Assembly (NCBI GenBank): GCA_028279705.1
Contig: JANQNF010000016.1
Span: 64,001-128,000, forward strand
DNA: 64,000 nucleotides
From: an archaeon
Lineage (GTDB): Archaea; Aenigmatarchaeota; Aenigmatarchaeia; QMZP01; JAFGSV01
Reading direction: 5' to 3'
A model generated the notes under the pieces. That model was not told the DNA's origin. It was given only the letters and a program-made list of their open reading frames with translations, and did no database searches. This document shows positions 1 through 29,556 of this stretch, in pieces. Positions within the stretch are counted from its first letter, which is position 1, and every line of letters begins with the position of its first letter. Made by a program: the position numbers and the translations under genes.

Positions 1-977
1 TCCCCGTAGCTTTGTGTGGCTCTATTTACCAGAGTACACCAACGCCATTTGGCACTTGGAGCAATGGTACGTATGAAGGTAACAACTATGGATTGGTAGA
101 AGTTAATACTTCTCCTAGACATGAAATTGTTATTAGTATTAGAGACGATACTGGTGCCGAAGCAACAGGACCGACACCGCTGACAATTCCTGACCAAAAC
201 ACAGTAGACCCAACACACGTATCTGGCCTAATCTTCTGGTTAAAGGCTGAGTCTGGAACTATGTATACCGATGGTAGTAAGACGACTACTGCTACCAGCG
301 GCGATAGTGTTCAGGTTTGGGAAGACAACAGTGGTAGCGGCAACGACGCTAGTCAGTCCAGTGCTGGTTTACAGCCAACATACGTTCAGAACTACTTCAA
401 CGGACGTGACGCACTGGTATTCGATGGCACTGAAGATATGTTCATCAATGCTATTACTGGTATGTTTACTGGTTCTGATACACCATTTAATGTATTTGCA
501 CTAATCAAGCAAAACTCAATTTCTACCAATCAGAATGTTGTAGGTGTGGGTAACTCTGCTTCTAATACTCAGGCACTAACACTACGCACACGTATTGATG
601 GCGGCGGCGGTTCTGATGATGTTTATGGGGCTAGAAAGTCTGACAACGCAGGCTCTCAGTCGGTAGTAGAAAGCACTACGCCACCAGACACTTCCGGTCT
701 GTATCTGCTTAACTGGCGCACAAATCCTGATGGTAACTCAATATCAATGTGGAGGAATGGTAGTGGTTTGTTTGATGCAGCAACTTTCAATGTTGGCGCT
801 GCTACATACAATCAGGCTACCATCGGTGGTTTAAACCGTATTAGTAACTCACCGAGTTTCGATGGTGGTATTTTAGAAGTTTTTGGTTTTGATACTCCTC
901 TTTCTAGGCTCGACCGACTAAGGATGGAGAGCTATATTCAGCGCACCTATGGTGTGGTAATGAGTGGTGCAGTATAA
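1..977 (+). CDS. LamG-like virion protein, 5' end outside window
   Basis: The frame is open from the first complete codon at base 3. The TTG at 12 has no ribosome-binding site, so the true start lies upstream and about 325 codons are visible. Most of this is a concanavalin/LamG-like jelly roll: a W-x-D-x-SG-x-G-N-D-A segment, an N-G-x-x-x-x-V-F-D-G strand and a C-terminal R-x-E-S-Y-I-Q tail ending in Y-G. The next genes share this plan. LamG folds usually bind carbohydrate or make trimeric fibre tips. Ser-Gly occurs 8 times. The stop overlaps the next start (TAATG). The role as a fibre or capsid decoration is inferred from domain and place. Confidence 0.75.
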   Translation, partial: PVALCGSIYQSTPTPFGTWSNGTYEGNNYGLVEVNTSPRHEIVISIRDDTGAEATGPTPLTIPDQNTVDPTHVSGLIFWLKAESGTMYTDGSKTTTATSGDSVQVWEDNSGSGNDASQSSAGLQPTYVQNYFNGRDALVFDGTEDMFINAITGMFTGSDTPFNVFALIKQNSISTNQNVVGVGNSASNTQALTLRTRIDGGGGSDDVYGARKSDNAGSQSVVESTTPPDTSGLYLLNWRTNPDGNSISMWRNGSGLFDAATFNVGAATYNQATIGGLNRISNSPSFDGGILEVFGFDTPLSRLDRLRMESYIQRTYGVVMSGAV

Positions 978-1951
978 TGCCTAGACATATCACAAATCAA
1001 ACAGACCACATTATTAGTGGCGCACTAGACCTAGAAGACCACGGTCCCGATGCAGCCGACAACAGGCTGATGGTGCCAGTGGTAAGTGGTCTTCCAGCAA
1101 TTACTGTCAACAATGGTCAGATGTGTTATGTTGCTGATTCTGGCGTATTAGCCGTAACCAGAGATGGCGCGTGGCAGACTAAAGCTTCTGAGACTTTTGG
1201 AAGTGGCATTTCTCCTGTTGATACTCCACAGATTCATGCATGGTGGGATGCAACAGAAAGCGTAATTACAAAAGGTGGCGATGTAAGCGGTGTACAGACT
1301 TGGGCTGATGCTGGTCCAAATGGTTTTGATTTATCGATTAATAATGACCGAGCACACGTTGTTGATGTAGATGGCATGTCTGGCGTATATTTCGATGGTG
1401 ATGATATGCTAGAAAATACCGCAGTAGACAATGCTATTGATGGTAATGACCAGCCTGTTACAGTCATAATGGTTTATGAGCCCACCGAAGATTTAAGTTT
1501 GGGAACTAACACTGTATTTATGTGTTGGAGTACAGTTTCTAATACACCGGGTTATGTAATGGCCTTCAACGCAGATAATACATACAATTTATTCAAGCGC
1601 GGCCAAGACGTAGACCAGATTAGTGTTAGTGCAGGATTTGCTCCAAGTGGCAATAAACAAGTAGTAACATTTTGGCATAACGGAACTCAGACTGCCATAT
1701 ATAGTAGTGGGGTAGCGCAGCAGACAGCAATTTCTGGTCAAGATGTATCTAATATTACGGCGGGTAAATGCACAGTTGGCGCTCAAGACCGTCCGGGTTT
1801 TGGTAAACAGAATTACTGCCGAGGTATTCTATATTCTCTAGCCGTATTTACATCTGGTTTGAGTAGCGAGCACAGAAAACAAGTGGAAACCAATTTGGCT
1901 TATAGGTATGGCGTAGCTGTACTAGAACCGTTTGAAGATAACTTGGCATAA
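977..1951 (+). CDS. LamG-like virion protein, paralogue 2
   Basis: The 324-residue protein has two parts. Residues 1-75 are a short N-terminal module with a D-H-G-P-D-A motif and a V-x-N-G-Q-M-C-Y-V-A-D-S-G hairpin, probably for assembly. Residues 85-315 are a LamG-like domain with the same W-A-D, F-D-G-D-D and Y-R-Y-G landmarks as its neighbours. About ten Ser-Gly dipeptides are spread along it. The start overlaps the upstream stop, and the next start lies 3 bases after its own stop, so translation is probably coupled. It lies before the neck genes, so a capsid-surface fibre is as likely as a tail fibre. No catalytic motif was seen. Confidence 0.75.
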   Translation: MPRHITNQTDHIISGALDLEDHGPDAADNRLMVPVVSGLPAITVNNGQMCYVADSGVLAVTRDGAWQTKASETFGSGISPVDTPQIHAWWDATESVITKGGDVSGVQTWADAGPNGFDLSINNDRAHVVDVDGMSGVYFDGDDMLENTAVDNAIDGNDQPVTVIMVYEPTEDLSLGTNTVFMCWSTVSNTPGYVMAFNADNTYNLFKRGQDVDQISVSAGFAPSGNKQVVTFWHNGTQTAIYSSGVAQQTAISGQDVSNITAGKCTVGAQDRPGFGKQNYCRGILYSLAVFTSGLSSEHRKQVETNLAYRYGVAVLEPFEDNLA

Positions 1952-1953
1952 TA

Positions 1954-2922
1954 ATGGTTAACAACAGATTTTTATCCAGCGCAGGAACACATTCTCCTTC
2001 TGGCGAGTGGATGTATGAAAACCATGGTCCAGATGCAGGAAATAACGTATGCGTTATACCTATTGGAACAGGAGCACCGGCTGTTACATTTAACGATGGC
2101 GAGTTGTTTTTTGTTGCACCCAGTAGTATGCTCCTGATGAGTCATGGTGGCGTTTGGAAATCTGTCAGCGGTGTTAAACCACCCTCTGCTCCTCCTGCTG
2201 CTGTTACAGGATTGTCGTTCCATTTAGATGCGCAGAGAGAAGCAGATGCTAGTGGCTATGTTGATGGCGTTTCAGTTAGCGGTGCTACAGATATATCTGC
2301 ATCAGGATTTGATATTGTTGTTAGTGGTGCTACATCTACCTATCCAACTTTCCGAGCAACAGGCATAAACGGACTACCTTCGTTTGAGTTCGACGGTGGT
2401 GATTATCTACGTGTAGACCAAGCAGTAAGATTGTTTGATACTAGATTTACTGGTCAAGATAGCGAATACACAGTATTTATTGTAACTAGTCCAAACAATT
2501 TAGATTCTACATCAGACAATCTTTTCTCTTGTGGTAATACTTTAGTGAATATTTATTTCCAAAGTCATTATCATCGAGGTGTAAATGGTTGGACTATGGC
2601 TAAAAGCGACATAGATGAAAACGTGTTTATCTCTGAAGGAGCCAGCGGTTCTATCACACCAGTATATCTATCATTTACTTCACATCCAACTAGTGGTATA
2701 GTACGAAGAGATGGTAATGTCGTTGGTTCTGGTTCTACTTGGGGTAACCTAGAAGAAATCCAGCTCAATACACTCTTAATTGCTGCTCAAGATAGGCAAA
2801 CTGGTGGAGTACAAAACTTCTTCAATGGACATATTGGTGAGATTCTAGTATACGACAGTGCTCTTAGCGATGCTGATAGAGTGCAAATTGAACAATACAT
2901 TCAAGATAGGTGGGGATTATAA
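1954..2922 (+). CDS. LamG-like virion protein, paralogue 3
   Basis: The 322-residue protein has the same architecture as its neighbours. The N-terminal module carries the same G-P-D-A segment as paralogue 2 and a V-T-F-N-D-G-E-L-F-F-V hairpin. The LamG-like domain holds a G-L-P-S-F-E-F-D-G-G-D-Y-L strand and ends Q-Y-I-Q-D-R-W-G-L. Ser-Gly occurs about ten times. Its first 15 coding bases are identical to those of the major tail protein gene at 7599. This may reflect module exchange or chance. The stop overlaps the ATG of the next gene. Sugar binding or host adhesion is inferred from the fold only. Confidence 0.75.
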   Translation: MVNNRFLSSAGTHSPSGEWMYENHGPDAGNNVCVIPIGTGAPAVTFNDGELFFVAPSSMLLMSHGGVWKSVSGVKPPSAPPAAVTGLSFHLDAQREADASGYVDGVSVSGATDISASGFDIVVSGATSTYPTFRATGINGLPSFEFDGGDYLRVDQAVRLFDTRFTGQDSEYTVFIVTSPNNLDSTSDNLFSCGNTLVNIYFQSHYHRGVNGWTMAKSDIDENVFISEGASGSITPVYLSFTSHPTSGIVRRDGNVVGSGSTWGNLEEIQLNTLLIAAQDRQTGGVQNFFNGHIGEILVYDSALSDADRVQIEQYIQDRWGL

Positions 2923-3158
2923 TGCCAAGGTTTTTATCAGAGTCAGGAAGATTCCAGCCTTTTGACGGTGTAATTCATCATTACTCTAGTGGTGTCTTTG
3001 TAGTTCCTAGTGGTGAAGCATTTAACGATGTAGAAACTCGTTCGATTTCTGATACACTGACAAGTCTAGAATCTGAGGTGCAGATGTCACCTGCTAGTGG
3101 TGTTCTTGGTGTTGTGACCGAAAGTAGTGGTTGGATTGGTTTGGATTTTGGAAGTTAA
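2922..3158 (+). CDS. Short paralogue of the LamG proteins lacking the lectin domain
   Basis: I placed the start at ATG 2922, which overlaps the upstream stop, rather than the in-frame GTG at 2910. The 78-residue product begins M-P-R-F-L-S-E-S-G and matches only the N-terminal module of its neighbours: the F-V-V-P-S-G-E-A-F-N-D strand and the S-G-V-L-G-V hairpin followed by a G-W motif. It ends where the LamG domain would begin. It is either a degenerate duplicate or a stand-alone assembly module. About five Ser-Gly dipeptides in 78 residues make it one of the densest in the window. The next gene follows after 3 bases. Confidence 0.65.
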   Translation: MPRFLSESGRFQPFDGVIHHYSSGVFVVPSGEAFNDVETRSISDTLTSLESEVQMSPASGVLGVVTESSGWIGLDFGS

Positions 3159-3161
3159 GAC

Positions 3162-4157
3162 ATGACCATAAACACGTTTTTAAATGAATCAGGCACAAGT
3201 CCTAACTTGCAAGGCCAATATAATTTTGGCGGTGCTAGGTTGTGGTTTCCTTCTGAAGAGAATCTAACGGCCGCACCTACTACTTCTGGTGAAATTCGTT
3301 ACATCACTAACAGTGGTATGCTGGTTATTTACAATGGTGAAGACTGGACTAGATTCCAGATGGCTCCTGTTGTGGGAACTGGTTTGCCTCCATCTGAAAT
3401 TAACAACTTGTTTGCTTGGCTGCGAGCTGATAACATAGAAACTAGTGGTGTTAGCGGAATTAAAACTTGGTTTGATAATTCTGCTAATGGTAATGATTTT
3501 TTGGGGAACGCTGATGACCCCGGAGGCGGAACCACAGAATTTCCATTTATTGCTAGCGGCTCCGATGGCATTAACGGTAAAGACGCTTGTTATTTCAATG
3601 GCGTAGATGATAGAAAACCATATTTCATCTTAAATGATTCGACTTTTGCTAGTGCTGATAAAGCAATGACCGTTATCATGACTTACGAGCAGGGTCGTGA
3701 TATTGATGCTGTTGCTGCCGAGTATTGCTTGTTGGGTCTTGGTTTGACTACAGACAACTCTCCATTTATGGAATTCGGTATTAGAGACAGCACAGATGCG
3801 TGGCAGTTCAACCGCCGCGATGACGCAGATTTAGCCATAGTTAGCGATGACGGTGCTCCTGCCAGTCAGGAAGGAAGACAAACTATTGCAGCGTTTGTCT
3901 TCGACGGTACAGTTTATCATGCGTATATTGATGGAAACGAAATAACGCCTTCGAGCGGTATTCTTGCTGATGTTGGCTCAATGGGTACTAATAGGATTTC
4001 TATTGGTGGTCTTATTCGTTCATCCAATATTCACTTTATGATTGGTAAGATTGGTGAAGTGGCGATATACGAATCAGGCTTGAGTAACGAAGATAGACGC
4101 AATGTTCAAAAGTATATGTCAGACTATTGGGGTATTGCTCTAAGTGGAACCGATTAA
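3162..4157 (+). CDS. LamG-like virion protein, paralogue 4
   Basis: The 331-residue protein starts with M-T-I-N-T-F-L-N-E-S-G, matching the F-L-S-E-S-G start of the short gene before it. A hairpin module follows (S-G-E-I-R-Y-I-T-N-S-G-M-L). The LamG-like domain, residues ~90-325, has W-F-D-N-S-A-N-G-N-D, an N-G-K-D-A-C-Y-F-N-G strand and a C-terminal Y-M-S-D-Y-W-G. About nine Ser-Gly dipeptides are present. It is the last of the tandem family. The 38-base gap after it holds an AT-repeat stretch (about 4160-4176) and a GGTGA ribosome-binding site for the next gene. Function as in its paralogues, inferred. Confidence 0.75.
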   Translation: MTINTFLNESGTSPNLQGQYNFGGARLWFPSEENLTAAPTTSGEIRYITNSGMLVIYNGEDWTRFQMAPVVGTGLPPSEINNLFAWLRADNIETSGVSGIKTWFDNSANGNDFLGNADDPGGGTTEFPFIASGSDGINGKDACYFNGVDDRKPYFILNDSTFASADKAMTVIMTYEQGRDIDAVAAEYCLLGLGLTTDNSPFMEFGIRDSTDAWQFNRRDDADLAIVSDDGAPASQEGRQTIAAFVFDGTVYHAYIDGNEITPSSGILADVGSMGTNRISIGGLIRSSNIHFMIGKIGEVAIYESGLSNEDRRNVQKYMSDYWGIALSGTD

Positions 4158-4195
4158 TGTTTAATATATATATATAGATTGAATGGTGAATTATA

Positions 4196-4726: not shown

Positions 4727-4902
4727 TGGATGAAAAGAGAAAGCACGATGAGGGCGGCTTCATCTTTGAAGAAAATGATATTGGTACTGACCAAGGTAGA
4801 GAACTGCCCGAAGACGGCAAGATTCTAGACAACTTTGATACTATTGATTTTGGTCTACCTCCTAGCTATAGAGGTAAGCAGAAATACGAACCTGATGCCT
4901 AA
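4726..4902 (+). CDS. Small acidic protein, unknown
   Basis: This 58-residue protein starts at ATG 4726, which overlaps the upstream stop. An in-frame TTG 21 bases earlier looks spurious. It is rich in Asp and Glu, with an E-E-N-D-I-G-T-D-Q-G-R-E-L-P-E-D stretch, and has no hydrophobic core. It looks like a disordered or scaffold-like adaptor. Its 3' end overlaps the start of the next gene by 8 bases, so the two are probably translated together. No family recognised. Confidence 0.55.
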   Translation: MDEKRKHDEGGFIFEENDIGTDQGRELPEDGKILDNFDTIDFGLPPSYRGKQKYEPDA

Positions 4903-5632
4903 TCTTCGATTCAAGATTCGTAATGCCAAGAAGCTAGAAGCACGCATTGCCGTGGCGGCGCGCAATTATGCCAACGCTGCATTCAATGCTATTGAGAAAG
5001 AGCTAGAGAAAACAGGCGCACGAATCATTAGGCGAATCGAAAACAGCGAAGAATATAGGCAGCTAGTCAGTGACCCTATTCTTCGTGGCAAGCTAGGATT
5101 AGCGGCTCCGGGTCGTAAGTCTGGCGGGGATACTGATGCACCAGACTTAATCAGAGCCCTAGGAAACTTTAAGGTCACCAGAAACAGAGCCTTTAACACT
5201 AGGCGTTTCAGGTTGGAAATGCCCAGCCTGCAAGACTTAGAGCAGCAGTTAACACATAGACTGACTACTTTTGGTCGTGGAGCATTTCTACCGGGACCTA
5301 TCCAAAGTTGGTTCAGGTGGTGGGAGTTTGGAGATAGAGGAGAGATTGATACACTTACTGTATTCCAGAGAAGTTCTGCTGCGGCAGCAGGAAGACTCAG
5401 GACATCTCGTGTATCATTAAATAGGTTAATTGCCGAAAGAAGCCGTTCTGGTAGTGCTATTCAGATAGCTAGCGAGCCTGCAAACGATGCAAGTAGTATC
5501 ACTGGCTCTAACTTAATCGGCAGGACCTATGCGAATTTCGGTAGGATTTTACCGGCTCAGTTGGGGAAGGTATTAAGGCAGTTTACTAGAAACAACAAGC
5601 CTAACAGCTTCTTTGCTAGGGTGGTTCGATAA
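4895..5632 (+). CDS. Tail-completion or neck protein candidate
   Basis: The start is taken as ATG 4895 (M-P-N-L-R-F-K-I-R), which overlaps the upstream stop. This gives 245 residues, and the longer upstream frame is out of phase with the real neighbour. The N-terminus is a basic, helical K-L-E-A-R-I-A-V-A-A-R-N-Y segment followed by a long amphipathic helix. This resembles the HK97-gp10-like tail-completion proteins found between connector and tail tube genes. That likeness and the gene order are the only support for the function. It is not SG-rich. Its stop overlaps the next ATG. Confidence 0.5.
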   Translation: MPNLRFKIRNAKKLEARIAVAARNYANAAFNAIEKELEKTGARIIRRIENSEEYRQLVSDPILRGKLGLAAPGRKSGGDTDAPDLIRALGNFKVTRNRAFNTRRFRLEMPSLQDLEQQLTHRLTTFGRGAFLPGPIQSWFRWWEFGDRGEIDTLTVFQRSSAAAAGRLRTSRVSLNRLIAERSRSGSAIQIASEPANDASSITGSNLIGRTYANFGRILPAQLGKVLRQFTRNNKPNSFFARVVR

Positions 5633-6573
5633 TGGCATTTGGACAGAGAAAGCGTGGATTTAGAAATCGCGTCTATCATAATCTGAAGATGTTCCTAGAT
5701 GATTTCTTCATTAGTAGGGGGTTCTTCGATACGGTAGCATCTGGCGAAACAACATACGAAGGCATCAATCAGTCACAGCTATTGCCTGTTCAGAACGACC
5801 CGCTGTATCCAGTTGACTCTGGAACCACCGTCCATGTGTGGCAGGGTTACAGAAGGAACTGGGTAAGTGAATCGGGAACGCAACAAGTTCACCCGAATAT
5901 GTCCGACCCAATTCTAGTTAGCGGTGTATATATTAATGGTGTTTTCCACGAACCCACACCATTTAACTCGGGAGGTAGTAGTGGGCTTGCAGTAGACAGA
6001 TTAAACGGTAGAGTTATCGTAGAGTCGGGTTTGCCAGCCAGCTACACCGTGGAAGTGGAGCACTCGTTTAAGGAAGTCTGGGTGGATACTATCTCACGAG
6101 ATATGATTACCAACCAGATTACCGCTATTGACAATACCAAGCGTATCGTCATCAACAATGCGCCATCGGGGGAAATCGGACAACTCCCGATGGTGCTAAT
6201 GGAAATGAAGAACAATCCAAGCCCAGAAGGATTACAACTTGGTGGCGGCATTATTTTCCGTCCTGTAGTCGATTTGCATGTTGTGACCAATAGCAGATAC
6301 GACAAAGATGAGATTATTGATGCTCTCACACTCAGAGCTTTTAACACTATGCAGATGGTGGATTTGGACGCAGCGCCGCAGGAACAGTTTACTTTCTACG
6401 GTAACTATGGTTCAGGATACCAAACATATAGTGAGTTAAAGGCAAATTACTTAGACCGTAATGCTTTCGTGCAGAGCGTTTCATTGGTGGCCAACGATGA
6501 TATTGCTCAAGAAGGCTATTACACAGCACTAGTGCGAATGGAATTCAGAATTGATATTCCAGAAGAAGTTTAA
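5632..6573 (+). CDS. Virion protein, tail terminator candidate, Ser-Gly rich
   Basis: The 313-residue protein starts M-A-F-G-Q-R-K-R-G-F with a basic N-terminus. The rest is predicted mostly beta strand, with N-G-V-F-H-E-P and S-G-V-Y-I-N-G hairpins. Ser-Gly occurs about nine times. This separates it from the three non-SG neck genes before it and groups it with the exposed tail proteins. Its place just before the tail tube block suits a tail terminator or neck-surface protein. No family motif is recognised, so the call rests on position. It begins in a TAATG overlap and is followed by a good AAGGAG site for the next gene. Confidence 0.5.
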   Translation: MAFGQRKRGFRNRVYHNLKMFLDDFFISRGFFDTVASGETTYEGINQSQLLPVQNDPLYPVDSGTTVHVWQGYRRNWVSESGTQQVHPNMSDPILVSGVYINGVFHEPTPFNSGGSSGLAVDRLNGRVIVESGLPASYTVEVEHSFKEVWVDTISRDMITNQITAIDNTKRIVINNAPSGEIGQLPMVLMEMKNNPSPEGLQLGGGIIFRPVVDLHVVTNSRYDKDEIIDALTLRAFNTMQMVDLDAAPQEQFTFYGNYGSGYQTYSELKANYLDRNAFVQSVSLVANDDIAQEGYYTALVRMEFRIDIPEEV

Positions 6574-6584
6574 GGAGATTAGAC

Positions 6585-7598: not shown

Positions 7599-8891
7599 AT
7601 GGTTAACAACAGAACTTTCTATGCTGTCAAGCAGCTCAGCATCAAGAACAACGACTACGCTAACAACAGTGTACTACTTGACGCAATTCAGGTTAACGCT
7701 TCTGGTCAGCACGCTTCAGGTGTTACCCAAATCGACCTAAACGCTAGCGGTTCCCTAGATGCACTACCGTCTATCGGTCAGTTCATCACCCCGTCTGGCG
7801 AGTTGATTACCTACACAAGCACATCAGGTGACTCACTTGGTGGTGGTCTTCTAGGTGTAACACGTGGTGCTACCAACACACAGGCAACTGTGATTGAAAG
7901 CGGCGACCTACTCAAGTATGCAGGTTGGGAAGTTGTCCACGGTGTTCAGAGTGTTGGCGTAACAACCAACTTCAGTCTAGAGCAGGTTTTCGAATTTGGT
8001 CAGATTGAGATTTACGAGAACATCGAGGCGCTACCAGAGCTAGAAGTAACCGTTGAGCGTGTACTTGATGGCACAAAGCCACTATGGTTCATGGTAACTG
8101 ACGATACTAAGACCACTTTGAACGAAGCGGTTGCTAACTATAAGGCCGACGTCGGTCTTAACATCTATGCAGACTCACAGAACCGTGCGTCTGGTACCAT
8201 CCGTCAGTTCATGTTTATGTCTGGTATGTTCATCTCGAACGCTACCTACACCTTCCCTGTTGATGGAAACTTCACTGAGTCTATCACCATGGTCGGTAAC
8301 GACAAGACATGGACACAGAGTGCAAACGCCCCAAGCGGCAACTGGACTCAAGAGCGTGTTGGTAATGGTGGTGTAGAGGATGCAACTGTCATCGGCTCAG
8401 GTGTTCAGCGTCGTGAAAACCTATCTCTAACTGCTTCTGAAGTTCCAACAGACCTACCGGGCGTGCCCGGCGCAGGCGTTGGTAACCTTGGTTCAGGTAT
8501 TAACGAGCACCTCCAGACCATTACTCTCTCTGTAGATATTGGTCGTGAGGACTTGTTCGAGCTAGGTGCTAAGAAGCCATTCTTCAAGTCTGTAACCTTC
8601 CCAGTGGAGGTTTCAGCAACTTTCGAAGTAGTAACCGCTGAAGGTGACCTCGTTGAAGCTCTAAGCGACAACGACACTAACCTCGTCAACCAGAACATTC
8701 TAATTAAGACTGACTCTGGTCTCACCGTTAACCTTGGTGCCGAGAACAAGCTTCTCAGCATTGATTTCGGTGGTGGCGATGCTGGTGGTGGTAACGACAA
8801 CGTTACTTACACCTACCAGACATTCAACGTGTTCAGTGTGTCACACGATAACGCTGACTACTCACGCAGAGTGGCCGCAACTGGTGCGTAA
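7599..8891 (+). CDS. Major tail (tube) protein
   Basis: The 430-residue protein is mainly beta strand and sits where tail tube genes lie: after the neck genes, before assembly genes and the tape measure, with its own promoter region and a strong terminator behind it. The single-gene transcription unit suits a highly expressed structural protein. It contains an N-terminal S-I-G-Q-F-I-T-P-S-G-E-L-I-T-Y segment, seen in phage tail proteins for coordinate and slope values, and V-T-R-G-A-T-N-T. Ser-Gly occurs about 12 times. It is longer than simple tube proteins, which leaves room for an extra surface domain. The start has a G-rich site partly held in a hairpin. Confidence 0.7.
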   Translation: MVNNRTFYAVKQLSIKNNDYANNSVLLDAIQVNASGQHASGVTQIDLNASGSLDALPSIGQFITPSGELITYTSTSGDSLGGGLLGVTRGATNTQATVIESGDLLKYAGWEVVHGVQSVGVTTNFSLEQVFEFGQIEIYENIEALPELEVTVERVLDGTKPLWFMVTDDTKTTLNEAVANYKADVGLNIYADSQNRASGTIRQFMFMSGMFISNATYTFPVDGNFTESITMVGNDKTWTQSANAPSGNWTQERVGNGGVEDATVIGSGVQRRENLSLTASEVPTDLPGVPGAGVGNLGSGINEHLQTITLSVDIGREDLFELGAKKPFFKSVTFPVEVSATFEVVTAEGDLVEALSDNDTNLVNQNILIKTDSGLTVNLGAENKLLSIDFGGGDAGGGNDNVTYTYQTFNVFSVSHDNADYSRRVAATGA

Positions 8892-8928
8892 TTTCGTATA
8901 AGTTACCGGAACTGGTACGTAAATATGA

Positions 8929-10141: not shown

Positions 10142-10151
10142 GAAAGGTAAG

Positions 10152-20400: not shown

Positions 20401-20939
20401 TGGCAGCTCCAACAATCGTATTCAGACAGTTTGCTGTATCTGGCGTTGACCCGTCTGGGTTTAGGGCACAAGATACGCACCCGTCTTTTATTAAGCAACT
20501 GGGTGTTGGAGCCGACGAGCAACTAGACTTTGGCTCTAACGACATTAGTATCTCTGGTGTTAATTCACCAACAAGAGTAGCATCTGCACATATGGAGGCT
20601 AGTGGCGATTTAACCACTCAGCTTTTCAATATGAAATTCTGGCTACCAAGTGTTACTTCTTTTGAAGGCACTGTTAGATTCAATATGCTAACTTCGTCTG
20701 GTTGGTTGCAAAACGAAGTTGTACAAAATAACTCTGTTCAGCAAGTTCCAGTTACTCTACCTACATCTGGTAATATCTTAAGACAAGATGCTAGTGGTAT
20801 TATTACAGGTAGCGGAGATGCAGAAGTTACGGAGTGGATTTATCTGAGTGTATTTACGGGAACTGATGAATCACCCGGAATTAAAGGTGGCGCTGGGCAG
20901 AATACTTTTAGATACAGGCTTACTGCGGATTACTATTAA
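20400..20939 (+). CDS. Tail protein, Ser-Gly rich, unknown
   Basis: The 179-residue beta-rich protein begins in a TAATG overlap and ends in another. It has about eight Ser-Gly dipeptides. Its core (S-T-R-V-A-S-A-H-M-E-A-S-G-like strands, then W-L-P-S-V-T-S-F-E-G) and its closing S-E-W-I-Y-L-S-V-F-T-G-type strand match the C-terminal domain of the next gene, which has I-K-V-W-L and S-Q-Y-I-Y-L-A-L-H-T at equivalent places. The two probably share a domain by duplication. The function is unknown. A minor tail or tip component is inferred from context. Confidence 0.5.
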   Translation: MAAPTIVFRQFAVSGVDPSGFRAQDTHPSFIKQLGVGADEQLDFGSNDISISGVNSPTRVASAHMEASGDLTTQLFNMKFWLPSVTSFEGTVRFNMLTSSGWLQNEVVQNNSVQQVPVTLPTSGNILRQDASGIITGSGDAEVTEWIYLSVFTGTDESPGIKGGAGQNTFRYRLTADYY

Positions 20940-22330
20940 TGCCCGAAAACGTAATTGTAACTGACAACAACCTCGTCGCACTATACAGGTTTAAGACTTG
21001 GGTAGAAGACGAAGCGTTGGTCAATATTTCAGAATCACCTACCTACACTGGTTTGAATACCATGCAGGTAAGTGGTACGTCTGTACGTGATGGCGACGTC
21101 CCGGCAAACGCTCCTAGCGGCAGCGGTGTTAAGTTTGATAGCTCTGCTGACTCTTTCCACATTAGCATGACAAGTGGCAATGCTAGTGGATTAGAAGTTG
21201 CATCTGGAATGAGATTCTCTTTCGGCTTCTTTGGTAGACCGGGACAGATGCACAATGGCGATAGAAGCTGGTTTACAAAACACCACTCTAACACGAGTGG
21301 TTCTTTTTATAGACTACAATCTGCTTCTGGCGGTGACAACATCTTGAATTGGGAGTTAACATTAGGTAGAAGCAATGGTGGCTCTAATTTACTGATTGCA
21401 AGTCCTTTTACTATTAACACTGGCGTTTACGAAAGTGTTGTTGCAGTCGTAGACACTGTAGCTGACACAGCTATTCTTTATGTAAGCGGTGTACCTGCTG
21501 CTAGTTCTACTTCGGTTCAGTATTCTCCGGGACCTTCTGGCTGGGGCCAGTCTCCTGTTAGATTAGGTAACCATCGTTCTTTCAGCAGTCAAGGTAACAC
21601 TAACGCTGTCGGCTTTGAAAGCGGCCTTATGGCTGAAGCTTTCTTTATGGATAGGGCTCTAACAGAAGATGAAGTTCAGGGGTATCATGCCAGTGGTTTT
21701 AGAGCTGGACAAGGCGCTTTTGTTCCAAGCGACGATAGTAACACAAACGATTCACAGAAAGATAATATTGGAACCATCTCAACTGATGCTCCTACACTAA
21801 GAATAACAGCTTGGAATGCAACCGACGCTGCCAACCCTTCTGGTATGAGACATACCGAATCTGGCTCACACCCAGCGTTTGTTAAGGTTATCGGAACTGG
21901 TTCTGGAATCACATTCAATAGAGCAATATTCAATGGAGTTTCTGACCCGCTGGCACTTACCGTCAGAAACGTGACACCAAGTAAAGTAGTCAGCGGCATT
22001 AAAGTATGGTTACAGAACGAAGCCGCTTTTGCTGGCGTAGATGGCTATGAAGTATCTGCTCGAATTAAAAGTGAGTGGGACCCGAATCTAGAGATGGGTA
22101 GTGGTGGTGGCTTCTTGGCGAGGAATTTTGCAGCAGCGTCTTCTGTGTTGCGCTCAGACCTTGGGCTTACTATAAATGGTGTAGTGGCACAAAGCAATGC
22201 TACTTCTGGAGAGCCAGACGTTTCTCAATATATCTACTTGGCTCTACACACAGACGGCAACTTTATTCCGGGCACATATGGCCCTAGCGGTTTTAACATC
22301 AGAATAACTTCGGATTTTGTAGATGCATAG
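20939..22330 (+). CDS. LamG-domain tail tip protein
   Basis: Of 463 residues, ~1-255 form a LamG-like jelly roll (R-F-S-F-G-F-F-G-R-P, a Y-E-S-V-V-A-V-V-D strand, W-G-Q-S-P-V-R-L-G-N-H) ending E-D-E-V-Q-G-Y-H-A-S-G-F. Residues ~275-463 are a second domain that resembles the preceding 179-residue protein. Ser-Gly occurs 19 times, about one per 24 residues. It is distinct from the upstream tandem LamG family and lies among distal tail genes, so binding to host surface sugars is a reasonable inference. It overlaps the next gene by 8 bases. Confidence 0.65.
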   Translation: MPENVIVTDNNLVALYRFKTWVEDEALVNISESPTYTGLNTMQVSGTSVRDGDVPANAPSGSGVKFDSSADSFHISMTSGNASGLEVASGMRFSFGFFGRPGQMHNGDRSWFTKHHSNTSGSFYRLQSASGGDNILNWELTLGRSNGGSNLLIASPFTINTGVYESVVAVVDTVADTAILYVSGVPAASSTSVQYSPGPSGWGQSPVRLGNHRSFSSQGNTNAVGFESGLMAEAFFMDRALTEDEVQGYHASGFRAGQGAFVPSDDSNTNDSQKDNIGTISTDAPTLRITAWNATDAANPSGMRHTESGSHPAFVKVIGTGSGITFNRAIFNGVSDPLALTVRNVTPSKVVSGIKVWLQNEAAFAGVDGYEVSARIKSEWDPNLEMGSGGGFLARNFAAASSVLRSDLGLTINGVVAQSNATSGEPDVSQYIYLALHTDGNFIPGTYGPSGFNIRITSDFVDA

Positions 22331-22745
22331 AGTTCATGAATTCAGCTATTCTCCAATTCTAATTGGTGGCAAGAAGCGTTATCTTTTAGAATTACCTGTG
22401 GATGATAAGCCAGTCGTATTTAAAACCATGACTACCGATATGGGCGCTTGGTTCGGAGAAGTAGAGCTTATTATAACAAATCAAGACATAGTGGGGGACG
22501 AAGGGCCTATGGCAACCGTCATGACCGCCAAGGGGGCTCTCATGGGCCGCCTGATTGGCCCTGTGACGCGCAAAGGCCCAGCATGGGTCATGGAGCATCT
22601 AACAGTAGACGGCCGCATGGAGTACGTGGTGGCTTCTGAGCGCCTGCTTGAAGGTAATCAGAATTTTGTCAATTACGGCGTACCTCAAGGCAAGTATTTG
22701 AGAATTGATATATATACTGGTGAGCATAGGATTATAAATGCCTAA
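22323..22745 (+). CDS. Tail tip protein, unknown
   Basis: The 140-residue protein begins M-H-R-V-H-E-F and ends Y-T-G-E-H-R-I-I-N-A. It is beta-rich with an F-K-T-M-T-T-D-M-G-A-W-F-G strand pair and one Met/Gly-rich central hairpin. It is not SG-rich, unlike both neighbours, which suggests an inner or assembly role. It overlaps both neighbours by 8 bases, so all three are probably translated together. No family recognised. Confidence 0.5.
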   Translation: MHRVHEFSYSPILIGGKKRYLLELPVDDKPVVFKTMTTDMGAWFGEVELIITNQDIVGDEGPMATVMTAKGALMGRLIGPVTRKGPAWVMEHLTVDGRMEYVVASERLLEGNQNFVNYGVPQGKYLRIDIYTGEHRIINA

Positions 22746-23475
22746 TACAAGTGGATTATTCGGCGGAGTAGCCGGTATCGCAGACCTAGCTGCGCAGGGT
22801 GACGTTGAGGCGGCTGCCACAGTGTCCGGCGTTAGTGTAGCTAATTTTGATGCTGAGCTAATCACTCAAATCGAATTCTTCTCAGAGTTTGATGCTATGC
22901 TGTGTGTAGGCGTTCAGGCTACTCAGGTGGCTCCGTCTGCTATTATCCAGCTTCCACTTGCGGCAAACACCAGCGGCTTGCCGGACTTCAATGTGACGTT
23001 CTCTGGTATCGGTCAGGCTTCTGGCCAGAAGAGAATTGTAGATTATAAATGGTTCTTTAACGACATAGAAACTAGCGTGAGTGGCGGACAGGTCACAGAC
23101 CATACCTTTACTGAATCGGGTTCATTCTTGGTAACTTTCAGAGTTATGGATGAGGACGGGCTATTTGGATTCGATACAATCCGAATCAACACATTCAGTG
23201 GTATTGCTCTTGAACTGCCGGGTTTGGAAACATCTGGTACACCACAGGGCGGTGAAGCACCGCTTGTTGTGGACTTTACATCATCTGGTAGTGGCGTAGC
23301 CGGAACAACCATTCTAGGTTATAGCTGGAACTTTGGTAACGGAACTCTATCGCGCAGACAAAACCAGAACGATATTACATATCATGTACCGGGTCTGTAC
23401 ATTCCAGTATGTACTTTGGTTGACTCTAGAAATGTCAAGGTATCTGACAGTATTACTATCGGGGTAAATAACTAA
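22738..23475 (+). CDS. PKD-domain (Ig-like) tail protein
   Basis: The 245-residue protein has an N-terminal helical part (G-V-A-G-I-A-D-L-A-A-Q-G) and two PKD-like Ig folds. Residues ~75-155 carry Y-K-W-F-F-N-D and D-H-T-F-T-E-S-G-S-F-L-V-T-F-R-V-x-D-E-D-G. Residues ~160-245 carry Y-S-W-N-F-G-N-G and a P-G-L-Y-I-P strand. PKD domains are common add-ons to phage tail proteins and may help weak sugar or surface binding. About eleven Ser-Gly dipeptides are present. The stop overlaps the next start. Confidence 0.7.
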   Translation: MPNTSGLFGGVAGIADLAAQGDVEAAATVSGVSVANFDAELITQIEFFSEFDAMLCVGVQATQVAPSAIIQLPLAANTSGLPDFNVTFSGIGQASGQKRIVDYKWFFNDIETSVSGGQVTDHTFTESGSFLVTFRVMDEDGLFGFDTIRINTFSGIALELPGLETSGTPQGGEAPLVVDFTSSGSGVAGTTILGYSWNFGNGTLSRRQNQNDITYHVPGLYIPVCTLVDSRNVKVSDSITIGVNN

Positions 23476-26400
23476 TGAGCAACATAGTTGCAGCAAGCGG
23501 CCTTGAAGGCAATTTCATTCCTTTTAAGGCTCCATCAGGTCAGTGGGGTGTAGACCTAGACGCTAGTCTTGTTTCCATGAACGCTTCGTTCGGATTTAAT
23601 GAGACTGCACATAGGTTTAACCTCCAGTTCGTAACGGAAGATTTCAATGGTGGTTCGGGTAACTTGCCGCCAATTGATACGTATACCCGTTTCGAAATCA
23701 GACCTAATGCTTGTGACCAAGGATTCTTTCTTGCTGGTAAGATTATTCATGCTGATTACAGCAACAGTGCTAACGGCACCAGTGTAAGTATCGAAATAGA
23801 AGATAGGCGCAAGTGCATTCTAGATGAAGTTAAGATTACCACAGAAGACCTTGGAGAAGGTGTGCCATCTGGCCTAGTGTCTGTGGGCGCTTACTATCGC
23901 AATGCGATTGGCTTTAAGGATGCTGGTGGTTCTATCTCTGATGCTAGAGTGAAAGAGTATCGTAACATTCTAGAGCTTGGCGCTACATATGAGCAGATTT
24001 ACAATGCGTTGATTTGGGCTAGCGGTCAGAACCAGACTACGTTCGATACTTCACGCCTGCCCGAGCCTGCTGTAATCTCAGCTAACCTACTGGGTTCTAC
24101 AGAGCCTCTAAGGTGGAAGTTAACTTCTACCACTCTGTCTACAGTAATTAGCACAGTATGCAGCGACTCTTCTTACGATTGGTATTGGGGTATGCGTGAT
24201 GACAAGGTTAAGCTTGTCAACCGCAAAGTTGAGTTCATCGTAAATGAAGATGCCCTACCAATTCAGACTCTAAGCCCAGACAGTGTGGACTTCAAGTTCG
24301 GCGCTGACCGTGTTCAGGCTCCGGGCGAAGTAACCGTTCTAGGTGCTCATCAGGAAGGTTTCCTGAACTCACGACTACTATCACCTATTGACGGTATTGA
24401 TGAACCATCTGTAGACTTCACATTCACACCAGCTTGGAGTGAAATCAGCATCAGTTTCTATGATGCATTCGGCGTATACAGAACTTATAAGCCAACCGAC
24501 ACAGAGCTTAAGATGGCTCTTATGGGTATTGATTGGTGGTCTCACTATAAAAAGTTCCAAGTGACTGATTACGGTGATGCAGAAGACGAAGGCGTTGTTG
24601 CTGCGCAACATCCAACTTTCCAATCTCGCCTAGACCCAGCGATGCCTGTTTCAGATTTCTTCAATAACTCTGTAAGCGGTATTCGAGTAATTAACAGCAG
24701 GTATGGCGATGAGCACATCTGGACTCTAGAGTGGTTCTCTCGTGTGGCCAACCATGCAAACAACCACTTCGGTAAGACCTATAAGCTTGAAGGCTTCGCT
24801 TTTGACGAGACAGATGGTTTCTTCCAGCCTGTTGAAGCTGCGTGGTGTAACCTAGAGAATCAGAAAGACGGTCCTCTATTCGTAGAGAACTATTCTATTA
24901 ACCCGCTTTACCTAGCGGTAAGCCCATTCGTAACTCAGGACTTCAAGGTTCGCGCACACGCGGTTATGCCATCAAGCACTATTTATGGTGCTGATGGTCT
25001 CAATGCGCCTGCGGCGTTTACTGACTGGAACGAAGATGCTCACCCAAGCGGTGACCAGACCTATGAACACTATGTTCCTGTAACAGTTAAGAGGGTTGGT
25101 CAGAAGGTGATTAACCCAAGAGATGAACAAAACGCATTTGAAGATTATCCAGAAGGAACTATCATTGCGCAGTTTCCTATTCTAGTAGCTTCAGGTCGTA
25201 ATCCAAATGTCATTCTGGCCGACTTGGTAACGCTACATGAACTAGGCGTTCTAGCTGCATCTTCTGGCGTAGAAGATATCATTGACCCAACACAGCTTGT
25301 TGAGCCATATCAAAGTATCTCTGGTATTGCCATTCCAGTGCAGACACGTAAGAGATATGGTCAGACATATCCAGCACCGTGGGCTTCTGGTAGCGCCAGC
25401 GGCGTGCGCCACGAAATGGTGGTCGAAGATAGATTTGCTCCATGGAACTACTTCGCCAGCAATAACAATAGTTCTGTAGATATTATGAGTCAGAGAGTGT
25501 CTGGTTTTATTCAGGCAAGACTGATTGGCGTAGATGAATCTAGATTTGCCGAGCTAAATAAGATTGACTGGCCATTCGTTGGTTTCGACGAATATTCATC
25601 TCAGTCATTCATTAGTGGGGTTTACGGACGTCGTGACCACGGCGTAAGCGATATTTCTGTATCTTACACGCAGGGTGTACCGCGTACCACTTATGGTGTT
25701 AAGAGCTTCTTCACTGATTTTGTTAAGGATGCTCCGCTAGGTGAAAAGAACTTTGCCGACCTAAACAACATTATCCACCCGGTTGATTTCCAAGAGTTGA
25801 ACAATAACCCAATTCGACCTGACCCAGACTTCAGGAGCATTGGAGATGGTTCACCAAGACCTCTGGGAATTCCATCACAGAGTATTAGAAAGCAGACTTA
25901 TGCTGTAACTATCACTCAGGTTCTTAATCGTGGTAGCACCACGGAACCAGAGCGTTACTTCAGCATTACAAAAGATAGTGTTCCTAAGCCCGGTGGTGCA
26001 GTTGACCCACTGGATTCTAACGACCTTATTTGCCGTGACGGCTTCCTGAATGTAGGCGACCCAGCTCTATACATTGTAGAGTATAAGAGCAACGGACAGA
26101 GGCGTCGTTATTACACCAATGGAACAGACTTAACAGAAGGCGGCGCACTTGCACAGGTAACATCTGTTGGCGCTTCTACTGTAGATATTTCTTACCGTGG
26201 ATTCAGCCTAACAAGCGTTCCAACTATCGGTAAAGACCCATCAGAGATTGTGGTTAACGAGCAGGGTACTATTGTAACGGATGGTACCATGAAGCCGGAC
26301 AATGATGGTGGCCTCAATGGTCTCCGTCCTGATAGGGACGTGCCAGCGGGCGTATTCTTCCAGCCTTCGAGCGGTGCTGCTGTTGCAGGTAGCGGTGCTG

Positions 26401-26654
26401 CTCTACCAGTAATCATTAACGAGATTTCAAACTTTGCTACATGCAGCGGAATCGCTGTTGTTCAGCCTGTTATTCCTAGCGGTGCTGACGGCTGCTCTTT
26501 TGCTGGTAGCGGAGCTACGACAGGTAGTGTGCAACCAATTCCAATTCCAGAGTTCGCACAGAGCGGAGATATCGGAGTATTTACTCAGAACTCTGCTGGT
26601 GACAAATTTGTCTTTATCAACAGGCAGTCTTTCTCTGCCTATAACGGTAGCTAA
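23475..26654 (+). CDS. Tail hub / tail-associated protein
   Basis: The 1059-residue protein lies where the tail hub (gp27/Tal-like) gene is expected. The N-terminal ~400 residues look hub-like: beta domains with F-E-I-R-P-N-A-x-D-Q-G-F-F-L-A-G-K-I, a V-S-I-E-I-E-D-R-R strand, an S-Y-D-W-Y-W-G-M-R-D-D-K-V-K-L-V-N segment and a P-G-E-V-T-V-L-G-A strand. The C-terminal part from ~640 is an extended beta region that probably forms the tip. It holds many Ser-Gly dipeptides, mostly in loops. No lysozyme motif was seen. It should cap the tube and connect it to the fibres, based on order and size. Confidence 0.6.
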   Translation: MSNIVAASGLEGNFIPFKAPSGQWGVDLDASLVSMNASFGFNETAHRFNLQFVTEDFNGGSGNLPPIDTYTRFEIRPNACDQGFFLAGKIIHADYSNSANGTSVSIEIEDRRKCILDEVKITTEDLGEGVPSGLVSVGAYYRNAIGFKDAGGSISDARVKEYRNILELGATYEQIYNALIWASGQNQTTFDTSRLPEPAVISANLLGSTEPLRWKLTSTTLSTVISTVCSDSSYDWYWGMRDDKVKLVNRKVEFIVNEDALPIQTLSPDSVDFKFGADRVQAPGEVTVLGAHQEGFLNSRLLSPIDGIDEPSVDFTFTPAWSEISISFYDAFGVYRTYKPTDTELKMALMGIDWWSHYKKFQVTDYGDAEDEGVVAAQHPTFQSRLDPAMPVSDFFNNSVSGIRVINSRYGDEHIWTLEWFSRVANHANNHFGKTYKLEGFAFDETDGFFQPVEAAWCNLENQKDGPLFVENYSINPLYLAVSPFVTQDFKVRAHAVMPSSTIYGADGLNAPAAFTDWNEDAHPSGDQTYEHYVPVTVKRVGQKVINPRDEQNAFEDYPEGTIIAQFPILVASGRNPNVILADLVTLHELGVLAASSGVEDIIDPTQLVEPYQSISGIAIPVQTRKRYGQTYPAPWASGSASGVRHEMVVEDRFAPWNYFASNNNSSVDIMSQRVSGFIQARLIGVDESRFAELNKIDWPFVGFDEYSSQSFISGVYGRRDHGVSDISVSYTQGVPRTTYGVKSFFTDFVKDAPLGEKNFADLNNIIHPVDFQELNNNPIRPDPDFRSIGDGSPRPLGIPSQSIRKQTYAVTITQVLNRGSTTEPERYFSITKDSVPKPGGAVDPLDSNDLICRDGFLNVGDPALYIVEYKSNGQRRRYYTNGTDLTEGGALAQVTSVGASTVDISYRGFSLTSVPTIGKDPSEIVVNEQGTIVTDGTMKPDNDGGLNGLRPDRDVPAGVFFQPSSGAAVAGSGAALPVIINEISNFATCSGIAVVQPVIPSGADGCSFAGSGATTGSVQPIPIPEFAQSGDIGVFTQNSAGDKFVFINRQSFSAYNGS

Positions 26655-26657
26655 TAC

Positions 26658-28910
26658 ATGGTAGTAGAGTCAGGACAGGCACCCTACCAATACGTAGGGT
26701 CGAAACTTCGTTTTAGTGCTTTAGGCCAGAATATCGCACCTAGTGCTATTCTGTACGAAGAGGCTATGTTCGCGCTTAAAGCGGAGTACAATCGTGTCAG
26801 AACGCAATCAAGTGGTTTTAACGCAACCAATCGTGAAATCACTGGCGCTGACTACGACCCTGAAAACCCTGAAGCTTCTTTCAAGTTTGTAAACAGCAGC
26901 GGCAGTTTCATCAAGTATGTTAACGTAGGACTTTCTGGTATATTCGACCCTAACCCAAGTGGCGGATATCTTGACGGTAGATTAACACCTGTTAGCGGCA
27001 CCGCTTCTGGTATGGAGAATCTGCCGGGCGCTTGGCATTCTCGTGATTATATCACAGACATGCAAGATGTAATGGTGAGTGTGCATACTCGAATTGCTGA
27101 CTATATCGATGATGATGCGGACGTATCTCCATCTGATGTTTACCGTTCATGGTTTACTTCTTACAAAGGTTACAAGGACGGGTGGGCTGAGTCTGGTCTG
27201 TTCTATGAAGAATCTGGCGTACTGGACGAACTTAATGGTGACTTCTGGGACGACATTAGGTTCAACACTAGTAGGGCTAATATCGGAGTTACCAGCGGTA
27301 TTTTCGATAGACACTTAGACGAAGTAAGAATTCAGCCTATGCCTTATATCTTAGGGCAGTCGGGTAGTCTAACCAGCCTAGGCGCTGGTGGCGCTGCACC
27401 ATGGGAAGATGGCGTTTCAAATCTCAATCCAACTAAACCGAGATATTTTAGAACTGACGGAACTGTAGCTTCTGGTTGGGATAATATCAAAGTCTACGGA
27501 GATGTTCTGGTTTCCGGAATGGACATTGTTCTTAGTGGGTTAAATGGCGACACCCATGTAACTCAAAGTTGGGTAGCTGAAACTGATGACTTCTTTCCTA
27601 ACTTCCCGCGTAGTGGAGCATTCACACCTCCTGCAATGTCTGCTGGTTGGTATAAGATGATTCTTAGTGCCAGCGGCACAGACAATGACTTAGATGTTTT
27701 GTTTCCTTGGGGAACTGGTACAGACGATGCGTCTCTAATAGCGCAATGGCCTAGGCAAACCAGATGGTACGGCGAAGGTGGTAACCGTGGCTTTATTGTA
27801 AACAACACTATTCAGGGTTTGCAAGACCATGAGCCTAACGCAGCTCGAACAAGCTTTAGTCCACCTGACACCGAATCGGGTTTGTTCTGGTACGGTCTAT
27901 CGCCAAGCGGGGTTGAAGATGGTCCTGCTGATGCGCAAATTGTTGACCTAGTTCCAGTAAGGCCTTTTACTAGCGGTGTTGGTGATGGTGTTTGGGGACA
28001 TGACCTAAGAACTAAGTGGGGTAATGGAACCGGCACAAAGGTTAGGTCTGGTGGCTGGATTTATGATAGAAGCAACGACCAGATTGTTAGAACTATGAGT
28101 AGCGGCGGTCATGATGTGTGGTTGACCGCAGCGGCTCAGACAGACTACATCTTTGGAAGTGGTGTTATTAATGTATTCGAACCGCGAACCATTGACCTGC
28201 AAAGCGTTAACCTAGTAGGCACCGCTGGCGGTGCAGGCGGGGAAACTTTTAGGGCGTATGGACTATCTGCTATCACATTTGATGGTACGGATTATATCGT
28301 CAATGGTTTTCTTAACCACGACCCGCCTTCTGGCACACAAAGCCAAAGTGGCGCATATCTCAAAATTAATACATCGTTTAACCTAGTAGATGCTGTATTA
28401 TATACAGCAAGCTCTGGTTCGTTCAGACTGCACTGGGCTCGTGATACTGATGAATTTTTGGGCGTATCTAATGCTTTATCTACTTCTATGCCGGGAGTTG
28501 GTAGTGGTGGATATTTTGTTGTAGATTTGACCTTTGGTGCTATTACATCTGCTGGTGGTGGAAGTTATACCGTATTACGTCATACAATGCAATTAGCTTC
28601 TGGTGTTTCCGGCTTACTAAACCTAGACGGAGTAGGGCCAAGGGATAGAACACCTAGGATTATTGACTTTTTTGATGCTGAAGATGGCAGCAATACTCTC
28701 CACTGTATGTTCTGGGGATATGCTGCGGGAACAGCTAGTGGCGCAGGCAACACTTGGAGAAGATGGATTGGTGAAGTAGATACTGCCGGTGGTCATCCGT
28801 ATGAGATTACAGAAGCATGGCAAGTTGGATTAGATTCTACAAGAAACTCGATTAACTCTAATGTCCAGAATGCTGAGTTTAGTATGTACATGGACAACTG
28901 GGAATACTAA
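26658..28910 (+). CDS. Large tail fibre or tip protein, Ser-Gly rich
   Basis: The 750-residue protein is mostly beta strand and carries 29 Ser-Gly dipeptides, about one per 26 residues. Residues ~1-200 look like an attachment region with an R-D-Y-I-T-D-M-Q-D helix. The C-terminal ~430 residues have repeating W/Y-rich strands (G-G-W-I-Y-D-R-S-N-D-Q-I, F-D-G-T-D-Y-I-V-N-G-F, F-R-L-H-W-A-R-D-T-D-E-F-L-G-V) typical of a beta-propeller or beta-helix. It is the best receptor-binding candidate because of its place near the end of the tail module. No enzymatic motif was seen. Confidence 0.55.
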   Translation: MVVESGQAPYQYVGSKLRFSALGQNIAPSAILYEEAMFALKAEYNRVRTQSSGFNATNREITGADYDPENPEASFKFVNSSGSFIKYVNVGLSGIFDPNPSGGYLDGRLTPVSGTASGMENLPGAWHSRDYITDMQDVMVSVHTRIADYIDDDADVSPSDVYRSWFTSYKGYKDGWAESGLFYEESGVLDELNGDFWDDIRFNTSRANIGVTSGIFDRHLDEVRIQPMPYILGQSGSLTSLGAGGAAPWEDGVSNLNPTKPRYFRTDGTVASGWDNIKVYGDVLVSGMDIVLSGLNGDTHVTQSWVAETDDFFPNFPRSGAFTPPAMSAGWYKMILSASGTDNDLDVLFPWGTGTDDASLIAQWPRQTRWYGEGGNRGFIVNNTIQGLQDHEPNAARTSFSPPDTESGLFWYGLSPSGVEDGPADAQIVDLVPVRPFTSGVGDGVWGHDLRTKWGNGTGTKVRSGGWIYDRSNDQIVRTMSSGGHDVWLTAAAQTDYIFGSGVINVFEPRTIDLQSVNLVGTAGGAGGETFRAYGLSAITFDGTDYIVNGFLNHDPPSGTQSQSGAYLKINTSFNLVDAVLYTASSGSFRLHWARDTDEFLGVSNALSTSMPGVGSGGYFVVDLTFGAITSAGGGSYTVLRHTMQLASGVSGLLNLDGVGPRDRTPRIIDFFDAEDGSNTLHCMFWGYAAGTASGAGNTWRRWIGEVDTAGGHPYEITEAWQVGLDSTRNSINSNVQNAEFSMYMDNWEY

Positions 28911-28911
28911 T

Positions 28912-29556
28912 ATGGCAAACGTAAGGTTTTACATTGCTGGCGGTCCGGGTTCGGGTCTGGAAATTCAGCCACTATCCGACACAGAGAGGTTTAAGTACAT
29001 TGGTTTCTACGCTTCTAGTGGAGCGGGAGACTTTGTTACTGTGGGTGAATCTCAAGACTTAACTTGGCTAAGTGACCCATCTGGATTTATTGATGGAGCT
29101 ATCGCGGGCTCTGGTAAGATGGTAAATAACAAATGGGTTGACGCTAGCGGTGTATCTATTGACGGCGCCTCAAGGGAACCACTATCAGGCGTGAGAGAAT
29201 CGGGTGAAGCGACAATTAGAATTGCCGTAGAATCTACGTCAGGCATCTGGGTTCATAATCCGCGACTTTACGCTTATAATGGGACTTCTGTAGATAGTGA
29301 CTCTGATGACGTATTTGTGTTGTCATACGAGATTATACCTCAAGGTACTTCTGGTATTGGCGATAATGAATGGGCGGTAACAGATTCAACAAATTACAAT
29401 CAGTTTGTAGATAGAGCGTCAGGTGTTGGATATACTAGTGGGTTGGAGCATAACTTTTACGTTGGTCTAGCTATAAGACCTAAAGCAGCATCTACCAGCG
29501 GACACCGAATCTTTGGATTAAGATTTGAATGTGACGTTACAGATATTCCTGCGTAA
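28912..29556 (+). CDS. Tail fibre-associated protein, Ser-Gly rich
   Basis: The start is ATG 28912, just after the upstream stop. The longer frame from 28861 lies inside the previous gene. The 214-residue product is beta-rich and begins V-R-F-Y-I-A-G-G-P-G-S-G-L-E-I-Q. Twelve Ser-Gly dipeptides make it the densest of the larger proteins, about one per 18 residues. A R-I-F-G-L-R-F-E-C closing strand suggests a compact beta sandwich. It is the last tail gene. A fibre tip, fibre chaperone or decoration are all possible, and I do not recognise the family. Confidence 0.5.
   Translation: MANVRFYIAGGPGSGLEIQPLSDTERFKYIGFYASSGAGDFVTVGESQDLTWLSDPSGFIDGAIAGSGKMVNNKWVDASGVSIDGASREPLSGVRESGEATIRIAVESTSGIWVHNPRLYAYNGTSVDSDSDDVFVLSYEIIPQGTSGIGDNEWAVTDSTNYNQFVDRASGVGYTSGLEHNFYVGLAIRPKAASTSGHRIFGLRFECDVTDIPA

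Follow-up and report, generated by a model that had tools for sequence, protein, structure and literature searches.

Excess of Ser-Gly dipeptides in the virion proteins of an uncultivated siphophage lineage, a candidate acceptor motif for O-glycosylation

In the outer proteins of the phage described here, and likewise in those of most relatives sampled, the dipeptide Ser-Gly (SG) is found about two to three times as often as expected by chance, and no other pair of residues stands out. Judged from sequence, SG may well be the acceptor motif, or sequon, of a phage-encoded Ser-O-glycosylation that would coat the virion surface, a reading to which we assign a probability of about 0.6. The window analysed is a stretch of 64,000 nucleotides, bases 64,001-128,000 of a 175,863-bp contig (C74) binned with a 1.9-Mb MAG. 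Since the final 40 bases of the contig reappear at position 60, its ends seem to share a repeat of about 99 bp, which makes it a probable phage genome, assembled as a circle and placed in the bin of a bacterial MAG. All of its clearly SG-rich genes belong to the head-tail module (contig 54,804-93,556), and no SG excess was seen in the genes for portal, terminase, tape measure and replication proteins.

The structural genes of the window are all on the + strand and are given here with the observed against the expected number of SG in brackets. The window opens inside an 813-aa virion protein (phrog_10356, virion structural protein), whose C-terminal part lies at 3-977 and whose N-terminus, which is phosphodiesterase-like, falls outside the window on its left side (26 vs 9.8 for the whole protein). 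Two further virion proteins of the phrog_10356 paralogue family are encoded at 977-1951 (10 vs 2.4) and 3162-4157 (9 vs 3.1), and between them are a virion protein with a weak Laminin_G_3 match at 1954-2922 (9 vs 4.0) and a small ORF at 2910-3158 (5 vs 1.7). They are followed by a core protein of the structural module present in all 18 genomes first compared (5632-6573; 9 vs 1.8) and by the major tail tube protein (7599-8891; 12 vs 3.6), whose AlphaFold2 model was matched by Foldseek to the tail tube proteins of T5, P74-26 and SH-Ab15497. The tape measure protein of 2,610 aa (11168-19000; 6 vs 9.6, a ratio of 0.62) is internal and served as a control without excess. Beyond it lie a core tail-region protein, again in 18 of 18 genomes (19000-20400; 12 vs 4.1), two tail-region proteins at 20400-20939 (8 vs 1.9) and 20939-22330 (19 vs 6.5), the second with no relative found among isolated phages, and a PKD-domain protein at 22738-23475 (11 vs 2.6) that has 50% of its Ser in SG. 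The module ends with tail-region proteins of 1,059 aa (23475-26654; 20 vs 8.3) and 750 aa (26658-28910; 29 vs 8.8) and a final gene at 28861-29556 (12 vs 3.3). Going by gene identity, the SG-rich proteins would be exposed on the virion; in the tail-tube model, which is of modest confidence, 9 of the 12 SG serines are in coil vs 25 of 34 other Gly, no clear excess, and this counts against SG as an acceptor site.

For the counts, 70 window ORFs picked as likely genes were translated, and SG in each protein was compared with 2,000 composition-preserving shuffles. The enrichment claimed in the first-pass annotation was borne out by this comparison: pooled over 14 virion ORFs (5,519 aa), 173 SG were observed against 56.2 expected (O/E 3.08), and the z value of 15.6 was the highest of all 400 dipeptides, the runner-up being PS with 3.9. 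In the remaining 56 ORFs of the window, 53 SG were counted against 48.9 expected (O/E 1.08). None of the 2,000 shuffles reached the observed number for the ORFs at 977, 5632, 7599, 19000, 20400, 20939, 22738, 23475, 26658 and 28861, and p was 0.0015-0.04 for those at 3162, 1954 and 2910 and for the cut ORF at 3. Because the set of 14 genes was picked post hoc, after inspection, an unselected regional count was added, in which every ORF of at least 80 aa in contig 54,000-94,000 was included, and 251 SG were found against 97 expected. The residues around SG are not arbitrary, with A, P or V before it and V, I or L after it, i.e. (A/P/V)-SG-(V/I/L).

The hand counts on which the enrichment had first been noticed were correct for 26658 (29 SG in 750 aa), 20939 (19 in 463), 7599 (12 in 430), 22738 (11 in 245) and RecA (2 in 324), as well as for the small ORF (5 SG, in 82 aa or in the 78 aa that follow a later start) and the final tail gene (12 SG in 231 aa, or in 214 aa from the start at 28912). 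Only the 588-aa polymerase fragment was miscounted, having four SG and not three. The absence of an excess from the neck, chaperone and His-rich genes also stood, the ORFs at 9008, 10152, 10450 and 22323 carrying 0-1 SG. Enriched genes that had gone unmentioned are those at 977, 3162, 5632, 19000, 20400 and 23475, together with genes left of the window.

The tail tube protein has 49 matching IMG/VR loci, with no isolated phage among these relatives, and no relative was found in the viral contigs scanned with a single TerL sequence. The MAGs in which tail-tube relatives occur are labelled Heimdallarchaeota, SAR202, Verrucomicrobiales, Flavobacteriales, Micavibrio and Bacteroidetes. The first comparison comprised 17 large relatives and the window phage, 18 genomes in all. 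Common to those covering the respective regions are the terminase, portal, a 352-aa capsid-region protein, tail genes, PolIII, primase and helicase; SG enrichment was not clear in the portal and in the conserved 352-aa protein. SG outranks all other dipeptides in 15 of the 18 genomes, the window phage included, again mostly with A, P or V before it and V, I or L after it, and an SG excess at p<0.005 was found in 83 proteins of these genomes vs 2-9 for GS, TG, NG, DG, AG and GT. Five more genomes were recruited via a glycosyltransferase, and SG was on top in four of them but not in G023, so that in total SG leads all dipeptides in 19 of 23 genomes of this uncultivated siphophage lineage. The lineage genomes were recruited by genes they have in common and do not represent independent samples. 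The SG-poor relatives are G009, G015, G017 and G023.

The SG sites tend to be kept as a unit. In alignments of SG-rich proteins at 35-50% identity, SG remained SG in 62% of aligned sites, a figure somewhat inflated as the alignment set was chosen for SG excess, compared with 30% for GS and 38% for other Ser; in our judgement this selection does not account for the twofold gap between SG and GS. A giant tail protein of 3,700-5,400 aa contains 77-104 SG in the SG-rich phages vs 32-48 expected, and the Ser of SG is kept in 66% and other Ser in 38%. In the SG-poor G009 and G017, the same protein has 50 and 53 SG vs 35 expected, and the Ser of SG is kept in 33-34%, other Ser in 30%. Since the Ser of SG is so poorly kept there, the fold does not need the majority of its SG sites. 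On the other side, 245 of about 955 aligned SG sites, roughly a quarter, are still SG in the SG-poor relatives, a point against the modification reading. In the tail tube of the window phage, the majority of SG sites are absent from the relatives, and five SG fall within N-terminal residues 35-76, for which the 49 homologues have nothing comparable. The SG at residue 208, placed in a strand by the model, is kept in 46 of the 49, and at least some SG sites are therefore structural. Among the paralogous virion proteins, 22 of 28 SG columns are present in one paralogue only. As SG is kept at old sites and mostly private in the tail tube and the paralogues, the excess is both conserved and renewed at new sites.

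Five glycosyltransferases, one of them weak, are encoded in the window by Pfam/PHROGs matches, all on the + strand: an 891-aa protein with an N-terminal GT4-type domain, DUF4214 and a C-terminal GT9-like domain (42943-45618), a 652-aa two-domain protein (GT2 + GT4; 46213-48171), a GT2 enzyme (49729-50469), a GT4 enzyme (51885-52877) and a weakly matched GT2-like protein (52834-53514). On the same strand are genes for a nucleotidyltransferase similar to HldE domain II and glycerol-3-phosphate cytidylyltransferase (33773-34210), an FkbM-type methyltransferase that possibly methylates a glycan (53484-54188), and members of the UDP-galactopyranose mutase (55645-56799) and GDP-mannose 4,6-dehydratase (62287-63291) families, the last two under the NCBIfam equivalog cut-off; the family names of the sugar genes come from Pfam and such sub-cut-off NCBIfam matches. 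Directly right of the window follow a DegT aminotransferase with perosamine synthetases among its matches, an NDP-sugar epimerase matching UDP-glucose 4-epimerases best and UDP-glucuronate decarboxylases more weakly, and a UDP-glucose dehydrogenase.

Among the glycosyltransferases of the window, only the N-terminal domain of the 891-aa protein has BLAST relatives lineage-wide, its first 540 residues being matched in each of the 15 relatives first checked whose contigs reach this region. Further glycosyltransferases and Gmd-like genes occur in nearly all relatives, with sequences that differ from those of the window. A scan of viral contigs for the conserved enzyme yielded 572 stretches with relatives of the conserved glycosyltransferase, of which 80 were kept. 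A GT-B fold of GT4 type was predicted for the N-terminal domain (AlphaFold2 mostly confident over residues 1-580; Foldseek E 1e-13), with a chlorovirus glycosyltransferase, PDB 3oy2, as the closest match. The E-x7-E motif of GT4 reads GADEMPTNE in the window copy, where Gly replaces the first Glu, so that this copy may act differently or not initiate the glycan; a close relative has GADEMPMNE, and 14 aligned relatives keep an EGFGLP-type motif. The GT9 match covers residues 736-849 (E 7e-15), where the model is of low confidence, and most copies in relatives are about 550 aa long and end ahead of it. The conserved glycosyltransferase is also present in all four SG-poor phages, which, like the altered motif, counts against the glycosylation reading. 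When gene presence and absence were compared between SG-rich and SG-poor relatives, whose contigs are fragmentary, no gene tracked the SG level cleanly. The glycosyltransferase tree was tried as a predictor of SG level and rejected, as the SG-poor phages are scattered on it and shuffled labels equalled it in 108 of 500 trials. To explain the SG-poor states, a minimum of two to three separate changes is needed, three on both trees. A DUF1501 protein was noted near the phage glycan cluster of one relative, G001 (L070:2759-4000).

We infer that the Ser of SG is glycosylated and that the phage sugar genes act on virion proteins. The head-decoration, neck and tail proteins would be modified when newly made, in the host cytoplasm, by a phage glycosyltransferase acting on the Ser of (A/P/V)-Ser-Gly-(V/I/L) sites, and the glycan would then be extended by the variable phage glycosyltransferases. 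The sugars would be supplied by the GDP-mannose dehydratase, sugar aminotransferase, UDP-glucose dehydrogenase, epimerase and UDP-Galp mutase of the phage. One of the phage enzymes presumably starts the chain, and the benefit could lie in binding to a receptor or to mucus, in stability or in shielding.

Several other causes of the SG excess were weighed. The SG-bearing proteins are rich in Ser and Gly, and an artefact of composition or codon use in such Ser/Gly-rich or repeat-rich proteins might be suspected. However, with global or local composition kept, only 56-65 SG are expected vs the 173 observed: block shuffles gave 60.8 with blocks of 20 aa and 65.1 with blocks of 10 aa, the maxima in 1,000 shuffles being 82 and 87. 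In the 14 virion ORFs the reversed pair GS is at an O/E of 1.01, and the Ser and Gly codons within SG match those of the remaining Ser and Gly; together with the mostly paralogue-specific SG columns, this speaks against an artefact. The ordinary codon use places selection at the level of the protein, as the first-pass annotation had argued. The global and local shuffles and the codon comparison rule out an artefact of this kind, which we consider extremely improbable. A cause specific to one fold, that of the LamG-like paralogues, was also rejected, since the excess stays when three of the paralogues are removed (146 vs 46.6) and spans proteins as unrelated as the PKD, LamG-like and tail tube proteins. 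A host-wide SG bias was ruled out by the sampled host genes, in which the ratio is only 1.20.

A more serious, if still unlikely, alternative is that SG is an unmodified structural turn motif, selected for folding or stability at hairpin turns and strand entries of the beta-rich exterior proteins. Several SG of the tail tube are indeed in predicted loops or hairpin turns of the model (pLDDT 65, modest confidence), the model has the widely kept SG at residue 208 within a strand, and the context of a small residue, SG and a beta-branched residue would suit a turn ahead of a strand. In seven isolated phages (T4, lambda, S-PM2, HTVC008M, S-CBS4, MaeS and Staley) the ratio in Ser/Gly-rich proteins is 1.14-1.55 vs 2.73 here, and lambda and HTVC008M reach 1.5 without a known SG modification. 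Nevertheless, the excess is common to different folds. It is mostly lost from the homologous giant tail protein of two relatives at the same expected SG count, and the SG-poor states need more than one separate change. Turn architecture alone fits poorly because the other turn pairs are not enriched (NG 1.10, DG 1.16, GS as above) and TG is depleted (0.48; SS is at 0.57). Of the two readings in the first-pass annotation, the special beta-turn thus loses ground in spite of the tail-tube loops, and the modification site gains support from the glycosylation genes, the context motif, the conservation of SG as a unit and its loss in SG-poor relatives that have the same protein. Another Ser modification, e.g. 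phosphorylation or acylation by an unrecognised enzyme, would also suit an ordered, Ser-specific motif whose level is tracked one-to-one by no gene. The glycosyltransferases might then serve the host surface or DNA, and modification of DNA or O-antigen is a common role of phage glycosyltransferases; that they may modify DNA or host surface glycans also counts against SG glycosylation itself. The core families common to the relatives include one glycosyltransferase and none annotated as a protein kinase or acyltransferase, several having no assigned function, and we regard this alternative as improbable. The SG signal is ordered, Ser-only, context-dependent, restricted to virion proteins of several folds, kept as a unit and expendable in some relatives, which fits an acceptor better than a turn preference. 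Because such acceptor-like SG and glycosylation genes sit in the same genomes, phage-directed O-glycosylation appears to be the best reading.

No relevant paper was found when the literature was searched for Ser-Gly in phage virions, and the nearest known systems each differ. Eukaryotic glycosaminoglycan attachment by Ser-Gly xylosylation shares the acceptor dipeptide, and a UDP-glucose dehydrogenase is present here; however, the strong acidic flanks of that system were not found around the SG of the phage, which has mainly A/P before and V/L/I after, with only E at -1 (15 vs 7.8) and D at +4 mildly raised, and the epimerase resembles UDP-glucose 4-epimerases more closely than UDP-glucuronate decarboxylases. 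Chloroviruses of the PBCV-1 type likewise encode glycosyltransferases, among them the best fold match, and sugar-nucleotide enzymes. They have algal hosts and are glycosylated on Asn of the major capsid protein, whereas Ser-Gly is proposed here. O-glycosylation in Bacteroidetes uses the motif D-S/T-A/I/L/V/M/T. Such a short motif and the many Ser sites in surface proteins are points of likeness with bacterial Ser/Thr O-glycosylation, from which the present case differs in the Ser-Gly pair, the preference for Ser only, the phage-borne enzymes and a GT9-like domain that is just the C-terminal part of an 891-aa protein. Bacterial examples are the serine-rich repeat adhesins (PMC7661464) and the TibC/AIDA-I heptosylation of surface proteins (PMC4358343). 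Virion glycosylation is known in the mycobacteriophages Che8 and Rita (Freeman et al. 2023, cited in PMC11256854), which are also tailed phages with their own glycosyltransferases; the present system, predicted from sequence, differs in a Ser-Gly motif that recurs in 14 or more proteins of head and tail and in a large set of sugar-synthesis genes.

We see even odds that a wide group of uncultivated large siphophages has heavily O-glycosylated virions, made by phage enzymes via an SG sequon, with more than 150 sites in the structural set of a phage and a phage-specific glycan. If so, this would be an environmental phage group with genome-encoded sugar coats whose attachment sites are readable from sequence; phage biology would gain a protein glycosylation sequon and new glycosyltransferases with short acceptor motifs, as well as a testable idea of host access or of escape from surface recognition. 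The SG signal is strong enough for screening public viral genomes.

Some further features of the window were observed. DNA polymerase III alpha is split into a PHP/NTPase part (37587-39353) and a finger/HhH/OB part (40313-42004) with a 190-aa ORF between them, both parts being core families in 16 of 18 genomes. Nucleotide metabolism is represented by a B12-dependent ribonucleotide reductase (59166-61148) and ThyX (61219-61920). A ClpP-family protease (58235-58822) is common to 12 genomes and, since it adjoins the terminase gene in the relative G001, may serve as a capsid-maturation protease.
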